Positions 24,482 through 54,192 of a stretch of 64,000 bases of DNA are shown here, in pieces. Numbering within the stretch: the first letter of the stretch is position 1; the number at the start of each line of letters is the position of its first letter. The position numbers were made by a program, and so were the translations under genes. The DNA lies in contig NC_134677.1 of assembly GCF_024713945.1 (NCBI RefSeq), positions 1,491,001-1,555,000 on the forward strand, written 5' to 3'. Source of the DNA: Dermatophagoides farinae (taxonomy: Eukaryota > Arthropoda > Arachnida > Sarcoptiformes > Pyroglyphidae). The notes under the pieces were generated by a model that had not been told where the DNA came from, did no database searches, and saw only the letters and a program-made list of their open reading frames with translations.

Positions 24482-25325
24482 TTTTTTTTTGTGAATTTAA
24501 ATTTAAAAATCGATGATGATAAACAAACAAAAACACCGATTGTTTATGTCCTATTATTTATGAGTGACATCATCATGGCCAGAGAAAAAAAAACCAGACC
24601 TGCGTTCATCGAAAAATCCAAAAAAATATATAGGCGTTTGAGAAAGAGAAAGAGAGTATTTAGACGTCGTCGTCATCATCATCATGATAATAATCATCAT
24701 CATCAGGCAGATTGAAACGCCACCACTTTAATGCTATTGTACTACTGTTGTTGTTGTTGTTGGTAGTCGCTTTTTTTTGAACCCGAATGAAATTGCATCC
24801 TCTATCCACCGCCACCACCACTCACTTACTCACTCGCCCAATAGTGAAAAGCTCCAATTTTTTTTATCTCTGTGCATGGTTTCAATTTGGTTTTTTTTTG
24901 GTGACTATATATTACTCTCTACTACGTACATTTTATATTTCTATAGTCTTATCTCCAATATAGAAGCATTTTGGCTCCTCAAAAAAAACAAAATCCTCAT
25001 CATTTTTATGGTAATAGTCATATATTATTATTAATCGAAGGATTCATCATTGCTACGACCGCTATCGGCTAGGTAAGGATTGGCCAGTTACGCCTCTTGT
25101 ATTTTTCTTGTTTTTTTTTCACCATTATTATAACATATCTCTTTTCACATATTTGCCATTGATATTTTTGATTTTTTACCATCTAGAATTTTTCAACAGT
25201 TCAATTTGACGACTACGACGACATTTGATTTTTCAAAATTCCATCATCATCATCATCATCGATTCTTCTTAACATTCGTTTATATTCACAAACCAAACCA
25301 AACAAAACAAAAAATATAATTAATA
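24482..25325. other. Divergent region between NOSIP and ATP6V0C, with a 5' UTR intron
   Basis: A donor AG|GTAAGG at 25073 and an acceptor CATCTAG ending at 25186 mark a likely 5' UTR intron of the V-ATPase gene. CAT tracts lie at 24675-24690 and 25243-25260. A charged open frame around 24470-24715 is low complexity and overlaps the NOSIP promoter, so I do not call it a gene. Confidence 0.55.
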
Positions 25326-25817
25326 ATGTCTAATGAAGCTGAATTATCACCAGTTTATGCACCATTTTTCGGTGTACTCGGTGCCGCATCGGCTATCGTA
25401 TTTAGTTCGTTTGGTGCTGCATATGGTACGGCAAAATCTGGGACCGGTATCGCAGCCATGGCTGTCATGAGACCTGAACTTATTATGAAATCAATTATTC
25501 CTGTGGTCATGGCTGGTATTATTGCCATTTATGGTTTGGTTGTGGCCGCCATCCTAGCCAACAATATTGGTGAAGGTGGTCTTGAAAGTGGTGGTTATCA
25601 TCTATACAAAGGTTTCTTGCATCTTGGTGCTGGTCTTTCCGTAGGCCTTTCCGGCTTGGCAGCTGGTTTTGCCATTGGTATTGTTGGTGATGCTGGTGTT
25701 CGTGGTACAGCACAACAGCCACGTCTTTTTGTTGGTATGATCCTTATTCTTATTTTTGCTGAAGTCTTGGGTCTTTACGGTTTGATTGTTGCATTGGTTT
25801 TGGCGACCAAAAACTAA
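25326..25817 (+). CDS. ATP6V0C: V-type H+-ATPase 16 kDa proteolipid subunit c
   Basis: Forms the proton-carrying rotor ring of the V-ATPase in endosomes, lysosomes and other acidic organelles. The single coding exon encodes 163 residues; the usual length is 155-161. Four transmembrane helices are evident, as two repeated hairpins: [25 protein letters not shown] and [32 protein letters not shown]. The essential glutamate in helix 4 is in [20 protein letters not shown] (about residue 139). Compared with most genes in this window, synonymous sites use C and G more often, as expected for high expression. A long 3' UTR follows, with hexamers near 26498 and 26630. Confidence 0.97.
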
Positions 25818-26764
25818 AATTCAAGTAATATCTTTCATTTATTCACAATTGAATCATCATCAAATTTTAATTTCACGATCACACCATCATTATCATCGTT
25901 TTTTTTCTTTGCAACTCATGATTATTCACTTAATCTCTTTATCACAATTCCCGATTGATTCTTCATTATCTCTCTCCATACACACACACACACACACACA
26001 CAAATTTATTCTATTTGATCAAAAGGTGAAAATTCAATCTCAAAAACAATGGTTTGCTTAGTTACATTCAGCTAAAAATTCCTGCGCATACAGAAAACAG
26101 AAAAAAAATAACCGAAAACGCCCACTCGCCAAAACTCTAAAATCAATCCACGTTTTAAAATTTGTTTTGATTGTAAAAAACAAAATTTAATTTATCAACG
26201 TTTTTGAACATCACCATATTCATCTAATAATTATAACCAAATGTTTGAAGAACAGAACATCGTTTTTTTTCACACAACAATCATTCCATCCCAAAGAAAA
26301 AAAAATATTGCAGGTTTTGCCGTTTTTTTCCCTCGAATCTTTTCTCCATGTTATTGATATTCATTTTTTTTCTTTGATTTTTTTTGTGTAAAAAAATTTG
26401 TTTATATTTACGTTTCACATCACATACATAAACACATAGACATTGCATTGTATTGGTTGTGTTTGTGTGGTAAGCAACAACAACAACAACAACAACAAAA
26501 TAAAACGAAAGTCATAGGTTAATGTTTTTCTTTTCCAAAAAAATGATTTGATCAAAAACAAAAATTATGTTATGCTAATTTCATTTTAATTATAATGAAT
26601 AATCAAGAAATTTTGTTATGTATCATAATAATAAACATTTTATTCCAGATTCATCAAAAAAAACATTCAAATTGACAAAAAAAAATTTTGAATTAAATAA
26701 AAATTATCATTTGGTGTGTGATTCGTTTTCAGTTTCACAAAAAAAACAATGATTGATATGGGTA
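25818..26764. other. ATP6V0C 3' UTR region, convergent with the RPB10-like gene
   Basis: Low-complexity AT-rich sequence with (CA)n at 25980-26001 and CAA repeats at 26476-26498. AATAAA is seen at about 26498 and 26630. No open frame with family features was found. Confidence 0.55.
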
Positions 26765-27071
26765 TTATGTCATATTACTATAATCTTCTGGAAAGCCCAT
26801 TTTAATCGCATCTTCATATGTTTCATAATGAGACAGGAACATTGTATGACAACAGAATCGTTTTAATCCCAATTCCTTGAATAATGGTCTAAAAAGTGTA
26901 AGAAATGTATTTCATCATTTGAATTTGAAAAAAATAAAATTTGATCACATACTCTAATCCATTTTCAAGATTATCATTGGAAACTTTGGCTATTTGAAGT
27001 CGTTCATTGTATTCATTCCAAAGATGTCCAATTACTTTGCCACAGGTCCAACATCGAACAGGAAAGAGCAT
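26765..27071 (-). CDS. Diverged second copy of RNA polymerase subunit RPB10 (RPABC5-like)
   Basis: Two exons, 27071-26953 and 26888-26765 (donor GTATGT, acceptor TTTTTAG), encode 80 residues; canonical RPB10 is 67-68. The N-terminus keeps the family signature PVRCWTCGKVIG, with zinc ligands Cys7 and Cys10. The second pair is Cys52-Cys53 in GLKRFCC. The middle is about eight residues longer and the C-terminal helix (after HTMFLSH) is quite different. The single intron is phase 2 and sits seven residues before GLKR, exactly as in the canonical copy at 53917-54192 in this window, so the copy most likely arose by duplication of the genomic gene. It could be a specialised polymerase subunit, a zinc-binding protein with a new role, or a decaying copy; the intact frame and ligands argue against decay. 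Confidence 0.85.
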
Positions 27072-27683: not shown

Positions 27684-30600
27684 TTAACGAATTTCATCTT
27701 TGGTTTTTGTTAGATTCGTCGTTGATAATTTATTAGAATTGACAATTTCACCAGTGTTTTTCAAGGTTTTCATAGTATTCAATGTTTGTCCTGTTTTAGC
27801 ATTATCATTATTGATGACAGTAGAATTAAGACATTCATCTGAACTGGCATTAGTATTGGCCATTTCTTCATTTTCATTTGAAGAAAGAATATCTTCATCT
27901 GAACATGCCGAAGCGATTCTAAATGTCGGTAATATAGTAGTCAAATGGTTCCTAAAAAATTGTATAAAATATGAGTTAAAAATAGTATTATGTCAAAATA
28001 GATAAATCATACTTTTCGGTAATCAATTCGGAAATCTGTTGTGTCAGGTATTCTTCTTCATCATCATCGACATTCGAATGTGCACGTACAACCGATGTTG
28101 CATCACGATGCATGTTCATCTAAGTGAAAATAATTAATTTTCAAATAAATAAATTATTTTGCATTTATTGTAATTTACCTTGGAATGTCGAATCGAAGAT
28201 AAACGAGATGAGGCCGTATGACAGGCAGTATCCAATATATCAATATCGTTAAGTGTGTCAGATATCTGTCGCATTTGTTCGCTAATGATACTTTCAATGC
28301 AACTGTGTTCAAAGGGAAAAGAATTATTCATATTAATAGTGATTAAAAATGAAAAAAAAATAAAAATTTTTACATTGTCTGTTTACTGATATCATTCAAT
28401 TTATCTTGCATCTGCATCGATTTGTTTGTTCGTAATATACAAGGAGCAAATACAATGGCCAATGAATTTGCGTTCATACGATTGGCCGATTCTTGGCGTG
28501 CCACACGTGCTAAATGAAATGTCAGACGTTCAAGGAGATCATAGTTTGGCTTTGGTAGTTTACTGATATGATTGAATATTATTTGATTTCGTTCAATAGG
28601 ATCGGTAACTGTAGTGGCCCATAAGAAATCATCATAAAGTTCATAGGTCATTAGCGGTTCGGGCATTTCACGGAAAAATAATTTCAAACAACCGGCAAGA
28701 ACATGAACGCTATAATGGTCTAAATCAATATCCAAACGTTGTGCATCAAACATCTGTTTCAATTCATTTATGCTTGTTAGCCTAGCCGATTTACGATAAA
28801 TTCCTTCGGCATACAAGCCTTTTAGTTCGATTTTTGCAATCAAATGTTCAACAACTAATGGTATACGACATTCTTCCGTAACGAGTGCCGAAATTGGTGA
28901 TCCAAAGATTAATTTATTAGAGGATTTATTATTGTTACCACAGGTGGAAGCCACTTTATCGAAACATTTTTTATGACAAGCAAGTTTACAACGTCGACAT
29001 ATGAATATCCTTTCCATCATCCAAACATATGAATCACAAACTTCGCATACCGTATAAATGTTGGCCGTTGAAATGTAGAATTCATGTTCATATGTTTTAT
29101 AAACATCATCTTCTTTCTTGTTACGAGCACGTTTTTTACTTTGTTTACGTTTATTAGATTTCTTGAAAGTTGGTCCATTAATTCTTTCTTCTTTATTAAT
29201 TTTCGTATTATGCATATTACGTAATTCATCCATATAACCGCGAAAAGCATTCACGCCAAGAATCACGGGAAATGATTTAAATGTATTTTCTATTTCACAG
29301 ACATTTAATAAAATCTAAAATAGGTAAAAGAAATTTGGTTAATTCATAACAATAGGACATTCAGACAATAGATGATTAATAAAATACCTGTGCAAAATGG
29401 TCAATCAGATCCTTATAGGTCAATCGAACCACCATTCCATCTTGATGTGTCACCGAATAAGTGGAAATCAAATTATTTTTGAATTCTTTCAACGCTAACT
29501 TGAACACAATATCGACCATACATTCTTTTGGTTCATTAATTGTTTTCTTTTTGAACAGAATATTATCATCCATATCACGAATCTTTTTCGAAATGAATTT
29601 ATCCATTGAGGTTAGTTCATCTAGATCGGTGATAAGAACATCATGTGGATCGATAAATTGTTTGACTCTAACTGATTGTTTAGCTGGTGCAGCAAATGGC
29701 GTAACTTTCGATGATGATGATGTTAATGATTGATTCTCTTTGGTTGATGAATCAAGACTTTTTCCACTAGTAATTTTTGACTTTTTCTGCTTACTTCTTG
29801 GCGGCCGTGGTGGATTAAATGCTACAACAACAGAGAAAATTTTAGATACAATGAAAATTACAAAAGTGTAAATTACAAAATACCTCCAAGTACGGAAGAG
29901 CTTATGTTTGAACCTTCTTTGATACAAGGAATATCCGAGCTAAGATGAATACATTTCTTATGAAACAATTGTTTACATTCTGAACATTTTAAATGAATTT
30001 GTGGTTGATTCGATTGCTGCAATGGTTGTTGAACCAAAATTGGATTCTCACAAATGGCACAAATTTCACCAGATTTAAAACTACTTTCATCATGGATCGA
30101 ATGCCGTGAAAGAAGTGTAAAGTTTTCATCTTTAGCTTTCAATTGTTGTTGCTGTTGCGGATGATGATGCTGAAATGTATATGGTGTTGGCATATTCATA
30201 GAAGAAGAAAATATCGAATTCAATTGTGAATGCATATCACTTTGACTAGTTGAATTTTTCGATATAATAGGCATTTCATTTATTTTCATTCCTAAATCAT
30301 TGTTTGACAAACTTTTACTATTTAAAAGATTATATGTTTGATTCATTTGTTCGTTAAGGTTGTTTGCCGATTCAAATTCCATTCCTGCTTTTACCGACAT
30401 TGTTTGTTTCAACAAACGTTTATTAATCTCTGAATTACTTGAGGATTTACCCATAATGTTTCGAAATGTAGCTTTTGCTTTTTGAATGGGTCCCGATGTT
30501 GTTGATGATGATGATGATATGGCCGATGATTGAGATTCATCAAATGATGTTTGTTGTTTTGTCGTCGTTGCCGTTCGATTCGAAACATTGGGAGCTACTA

Positions 30601-53618: not shown

Positions 53619-54192
<574 letters not shown>

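Follow-up and report, generated by a model that had tools for sequence, protein, structure and literature searches.

RPB10 is one of the five subunits common to RNA polymerases (Pol) I, II and III (PMC8136413), and alpha-like heterodimers bind Rpb10 and Rpb12 to give an early assembly platform (PMC13374769; PMC8136413). Members of this platform are reported as more than one copy in several eukaryotes. The Pol I of Trypanosoma brucei contains the paralogues RPB5z, RPB6z and RPB10z, the last being described without evidence of a special role in Pol I mRNA transcription (PMC8311968). In Arabidopsis, two AC40 paralogues are reported to differ in their association with Pol I and Pol III (PMC13374769). 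Finally, Oxytricha possesses two RPB10 paralogues, one of which is reported as preferentially expressed in macronuclear development, the expression module of this developmental copy having been set aside for variable replicates (PMC5312943). Within the open-access literature searched, we found no second RPB10 or AC40 copy in an animal.

Here, we report the analysis of a second RPB10-type gene, named RPB10b, in the dust mite Dermatophagoides farinae. It lies in a stretch of 64,000 nucleotides (C1:1491001-1555000, hereafter the window), which also holds the canonical gene, and the genome searched comprises 22 contigs and 62,435,336 bases. The features of the two loci are, in window positions:

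26953..27071, minus strand: RPB10b coding exon 1, with the ATG at 27071, the CxxC zinc half-site and a middle longer by 8 residues
26889..26952, minus strand: RPB10b intron, 64 nt, GT-AG (GTATGT...TTTTTAG), phase 2, with the split codon 7 residues before GLKR
26765..26888, minus strand: RPB10b coding exon 2, with the GLKRFCC zinc half-site, CCHTM and HYETYE; the stop codon TAA ends at 26765
26639..26644, minus strand: AATAAA, which may be a polyadenylation signal, some 120 nt beyond the RPB10b stop (consensus match only)
53917..54011, plus strand: canonical RPB10 coding exon 1
54012..54080, plus strand: canonical RPB10 intron, 69 nt, phase 2
54081..54192, plus strand: canonical RPB10 coding exon 2

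RPB10b thus reads on the minus strand (27071..26765) as two exons encoding 80 aa plus a stop, with an intact frame under the predicted splicing. Its 64-nt intron was chosen by eye among three GT-AG pairs that leave GLKR in frame, and the other two pairs, which also keep the frame through GLKR, would give proteins of 65 and 77 aa. The gene is located in the interior of a large contig among neighbours with ordinary animal domains, the nearest Pfam-matching frames being an ATP synthase C frame (V-ATPase subunit c-like, 25323-25814) and a RhoGAP/C1 frame (28373-29314). Repeat scans of both RPB10 loci returned short, mostly AT-rich repeats. A sigma-70 promoter scan was dropped, as it has no meaning for an animal gene.

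The canonical mite protein is an ordinary RPB10 of 68 aa to which the human chain is 90% identical, and its best solved-structure match over the whole protein is RPABC5 (E 1.3e-41). RPB10b shares with canonical RPB10/RPABC5 (POLR2L; PF01194) the MxxPxRC start, the four zinc cysteines (C7, C10, C52 and C53), GLKRxCC and the phase-2 intron of the mite canonical gene. It differs by its middle, by CCHTM in place of CCRRM, by HYETYE in place of HVDLIE and by a new tail that is 4 residues longer. The initial annotation had proposed a second, diverged gene of 80 residues with all four zinc cysteines, GLKR(Y/F)CC and a longer middle. This description stands: the Pfam family PF01194 (RNA_pol_N) matches RPB10b with 73.1 bits (E 2.1e-20) against a curated cut-off of 26.9, and alignment with the canonical copy gives the 8 extra residues. 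Moreover, a six-frame search of the window gives two occurrences of GLKRxCC, whereas none of 100 block shuffles contains the motif. Given this family score and the absence of the motif from the shuffles, a resemblance by chance is excluded. The best solved-structure matches of RPB10b are archaeal and eukaryotic RPB10-type chains (E about 5e-12). RPB10b is nonetheless without the conserved CCRRM and HVDLIE block of cellular RPB10; this weakens the case for an ordinary RPB10, but not the case for membership of the sequence family.

Between the two mite copies, 28 of 68 aligned residues are identical, as are 114 of 204 bases. When the flanks of the two loci were compared, the single strong match was a segment of exon 1 (55 bases, 80%), and the remaining matches were short and AT-rich (filter off; best E 5e-4). 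Over 50 alignment columns, RPB10b keeps 14 of the 24 positions that are invariant in six reference RPB10s and 11 of the 26 variable ones (Fisher p 0.20). As invariant positions are kept no better than variable ones, the ordinary interface is not specifically preserved. The losses are clustered. RPB10b keeps 7 of 10 invariants within the first 25 residues and 6 of 9 in a stretch of 11 residues, but 1 of 5 after this stretch; the zinc core has thus been held, and the C-terminal face is new.

It had also been proposed that the C-terminal helix was replaced. This point has to be amended, since the alignment-based model of RPB10b (three rows; mean pLDDT 70 and pTM 0.52, a low-to-moderate confidence) places a helix at residues 51-69: the helix probably stays, and it is its sequence, hence its surface, that differs. 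With this model as query, Foldseek returned 14 matches at E <= 10, all of them RNA polymerase small chains, with a best E of 0.021, so that none reaches E 0.001. Twelve of the 14 are entries named RPB10/Rpo10 or viral homologue; the remaining two we take to be polymerase small chains from their chain letter. As the zinc core is kept, the RPB10 fold is probably kept as well. A model made from the single sequence was all helix (pLDDT 64), unlike RPB10, and was discarded.

To place RPB10b among the polymerase subunits of the mite, we carried out a census of the families RPB10, RPB1, RPB2, RPB5, RPB6, RPB8, RPB12, RPB11/RPAC2 and RPB3/RPAC1. The census covers contigs C1-C10, matches on C11-C22 having been set aside beforehand as belonging to another organism. 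Indeed, C11-C22 are gene-dense and intron-poor, with 2.5 frames of >=400 codons per 10 kb (12 stretches on 6 of the 12 contigs) against 0.78 in the window, and they carry their own RPB1, 2, 3, 5, 6, 10, 11 and 12; for these reasons we treat them as another, co-assembled eukaryote. There, we counted two RPB1, three RPB2, two RPB11-type and two RPB3-type genes, one each of RPB5, RPB6, RPB10 and RPB12, and the six-frame search found no RPB8. The RPB2 of C13 scores nearly equally against several eukaryotes. As seven of nine long frames from these contigs have no Pfam match at 1e-5 (two matched), this organism may be very fast-evolving or little known.

On C1-C10, we found three RPB1-type genes (one on C1, two on C9) and three RPB2-type genes (one on C3, two on C1). 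Based on their motifs, we take each set of three to represent Pol I, Pol II and Pol III. RPB5, RPB6, RPB8 and RPB12 are present as one gene each, and the two RPB11-type genes (C4 and C3) are presumably, again from motifs, one RPB11 and one RPAC2. RPB10 is present as two genes, the canonical one and RPB10b. A further PF01194 match at C4:18190 was below threshold (E 1.9, 15 bits), in a frame that looks by eye like a transposon fragment, and was dropped. The six-frame search of C1-C10 found no second RPAC2, RPB12, RPB11, RPB5, RPB6 or RPB8. All these counts are lower bounds: genes can be missed because only the best candidates of the six-frame search were scored, exon by exon, and the incomplete set on C11-C22 (two RPB1-type genes against three RPB2-type, no RPB8) indicates that search or assembly can miss genes.

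The RPB3/RPAC1 family is represented by three genes, on C8, C9 and C10. The C8 gene, which has the cysteine loop, is by eye an RPB3 and the single one found on C1-C10. The other two have RPAC1 as their best solved-structure match (6.4e-44 for the C9 gene and 9.1e-38 for the C10 gene). RPAC1-C9 (C9:3004477-3003377, minus strand) is predicted to encode 294 or 296 aa after splicing, depending on which of two acceptors is used, and the coding exon of nine bases with which it begins is a guess; a flagged TAA falls in an intron, and the frame is open once introns are removed. RPAC1-C10 (C10:1229870-1228920, minus strand) is a single open exon of 316 aa. It may be an old retrocopy, with its frame intact. 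The two proteins are 31% identical (89/287) and keep, respectively, 79 and 68 of the 163 positions shared by human and S. pombe RPAC1. In a tree they group together at 87/90, below the mark for firm support, with C10 on a long branch. The mite thus has two RPB10 and two RPAC1 genes beside one RPAC2, one RPB11 and one RPB12 found.

These data allow a comparison with the systems described above. Like T. brucei RPB10z, RPB10b duplicates a subunit that the polymerases normally share; RPB10z is listed in Pol I together with RPB5z and RPB6z (PMC8311968), whereas among the families searched the mite doubles RPB10 and RPAC1 only. As in Arabidopsis, two RPAC1/AC40 genes are found in one genome; there, a different association of the two forms with Pol I and Pol III is reported, whereas the mite genes are known from sequence, and the mite has an extra RPB10 as well. 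A second RPB10 gene is also shared with Oxytricha, in which RPB1, 2, 4, 7 and 11 are multiplied too, in contrast to the mite, in which no second large-subunit set was found (PMC5312943).

Altogether, we tentatively favour, at somewhat less than even confidence, the reading that RPB10b is a real, host-encoded and fast-evolving paralogue whose most likely place would be in the Pol I or Pol III platform together with an RPAC1 variant. In Pol I or Pol III, RPB10b would replace canonical RPB10 within the RPAC1-RPAC2-RPB10-RPB12 assembly platform and pair there with one of the diverged RPAC1 (AC40) proteins, and Pol II would keep the canonical protein. A platform built from variants fits the census, as RPB10 and RPAC1 are doubled and single RPAC2 and RPB12 genes were found. 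The proposal of the initial annotation that RPB10b may serve a modified polymerase gains unexpected support from the second RPAC1, since this subunit belongs to the same Pol I/III platform as RPB10. We infer that RPB10b is expressed and acts as a polymerase subunit; its putative pairing with an RPAC1 variant and the choice of polymerase are proposed at the same level. Against this reading, the ordinary interface is not specifically kept, RPB10b has lost four of the five invariants that follow CCxxM, its constraint is relaxed, and the search of C1-C10 gave no second RPAC2, RPB12 or large subunit. In addition, the putative link to RPAC1 is a co-occurrence in one genome, and both RPAC1 proteins are diverged, with a grouping that is not fully supported; the joint doubling is suggestive, not proof, of a pairing. 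A bolder version, which we consider doubtful, is that the alpha-like platform has been split in an animal: the RPAC1 variant and RPB10b would together give rise to a distinct Pol I or Pol III, RPB10 would no longer be common to all three polymerases, and in dust mites, whose piRNAs are reported as lost, the products of this enzyme might include germline or siRNA precursor transcripts.

A different possibility, to which we give a rather low probability, is that RPB10b is an isoform restricted to certain stages or tissues, able to take the place of the canonical subunit in all three polymerases, with no special tie to RPAC1. The developmental RPB10 paralogue reported in Oxytricha offers a precedent (PMC5312943), and the conservation of the zinc core and GLKR block in RPB10b is what would be expected of such an isoform. 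On the other hand, the CCRRM and HVDLIE residues have been lost and a single RPB3 gene was found on C1-C10, which makes full interchangeability less likely.

RPB10b could also have left the polymerase to become a small zinc protein with another partner. Its longer middle and altered C-terminal sequence are compatible with such a change, as is the finding that invariant positions are kept no better than variable ones. We nonetheless consider this improbable, since RPB10b clears the curated family cut-off by a wide margin and the chains matched by its fold model are small subunits of polymerases.

We then considered the selection acting on RPB10b, which bears on the idea that it is a slowly decaying duplicate still open by luck. 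The pairwise dN between RPB10b and the canonical gene is 0.60 and dS is 0.99, a value near saturation, for a dN/dS of 0.60; this ratio, together with the loss of 10 of the 24 invariants, would be consistent with decay. We simulated neutral evolution by introducing point changes into the canonical coding sequence until the observed base identity was reached (n=4000), indels being left out, which makes the simulation conservative. The frame remained open in 24 of the 4000 runs and the four cysteines in 5, and both were kept in none; the maximum number of identical residues was 26, against 28 observed. Neutral drift alone is therefore unlikely. The simulation argues against neutrality over the whole history of the gene, not against a recent loss of function. 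Moreover, the start codon, the splice sites and the downstream AATAAA are all present. From these sequence comparisons, the constraint on RPB10b is relaxed but non-neutral, and decay appears to us quite improbable.

The origin of RPB10b also has to be considered. Each RPB10 gene has one phase-2 intron with the split codon 7 residues before GLKR, as was noted at the outset and as the two sequences, read directly, bear out. Since RPB10b keeps an intron at the place and in the phase of the canonical gene, it would be a DNA-level copy and not a retrocopy, in agreement with the initial annotation. That annotation took the intron as a sign that the genomic gene had been copied. As proof of descent from the neighbouring canonical gene, the intron falls short: the RPB10 of contig C21 (93748-93971), taken to be that of the other organism, has by eye an intron at the same place and in the same phase, its exon ending ...ATAGA and continuing CGAAATTTTG after the intron. 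The intron would thus be old. It argues against a viral gene as well as against a retrocopy, and neither the date of the duplication that gave RPB10b nor its parent copy can be read from it.

This shared intron is compatible with a gain of RPB10b from another eukaryote, and a large DNA virus could be considered as a source too. In a protein tree of ten rows and 69 columns, in which the branch of RPB10b is about 3.6, neither a grouping with the mite canonical protein (AU p 0.147) nor one with two viral rows (AU p 0.144) is rejected, and no tree establishes a mite ancestry for RPB10b. Several observations nonetheless make a viral or foreign origin very unlikely. A scan of viral contigs with RPB10b as query, which reaches close relatives only, gave nine stretches that fit the pattern and none that was confirmed. 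Four viral contigs encode RPB10s whose genes lack introns and whose sequences retain HVD, and RPB10b is 35% identical to the one compared, against 43% to the mite canonical protein. Among solved chains, 17 cellular RPB10-type chains score 39-49 bits with RPB10b and two virus chains 15 bits. The African swine fever virus homologue (CP80R) resembles RPB10b by its length of 80 residues and differs by this score of 15 bits against the 39-49 of the cellular chains. Finally, RPB10b is embedded in a large contig and surrounded by genes for ordinary animal domains, which argues for a host gene. The claim that RPB10b is not viral is therefore probably right as far as the scan and the scores are concerned, and the tree groups it neither way. 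In the RPB10s of the four viral contigs, a long insertion separates the zinc half-sites, in the middle part that is also lengthened in RPB10b. A search for strays of mite DNA in contigs of prokaryote genomes gave 56 stretches that fit the pattern and none that was confirmed.

The remaining suggestion, an alternative polymerase in the style of plant Pol IV/V, here a dedicated fourth enzyme for the plant-like siRNA pathway that dust mites use, draws on the reported lack of piRNAs in D. farinae and on its Dicer siRNAs and RNA-dependent RNA polymerases (RdRPs), and is highly improbable, since the six-frame search of C1-C10, whose counts are lower bounds, found three RPB1-type and three RPB2-type genes that read as the Pol I, II and III types and no fourth largest or second-largest subunit gene.

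Dust mites are also unusual in their reported lack of piRNAs. In D. farinae, piRNAs are reported to be absent, transposons to be silenced by Dicer siRNAs and RdRPs to be present, in one study (PMC5805368) and in another (PMC5886382); one sentence of the latter states the opposite on piRNAs and is probably a slip. The reported absence of piRNAs makes a link between RPB10b and silencing tempting, though speculative. The reported loss of piRNAs makes it worth asking which polymerase lies behind the siRNA precursors of dust mites. More broadly, RPB10b, with its changed C-terminal face, and the doubled RPAC1 offer a natural experiment in which to see how polymerases break free of the constraint that shared parts impose.
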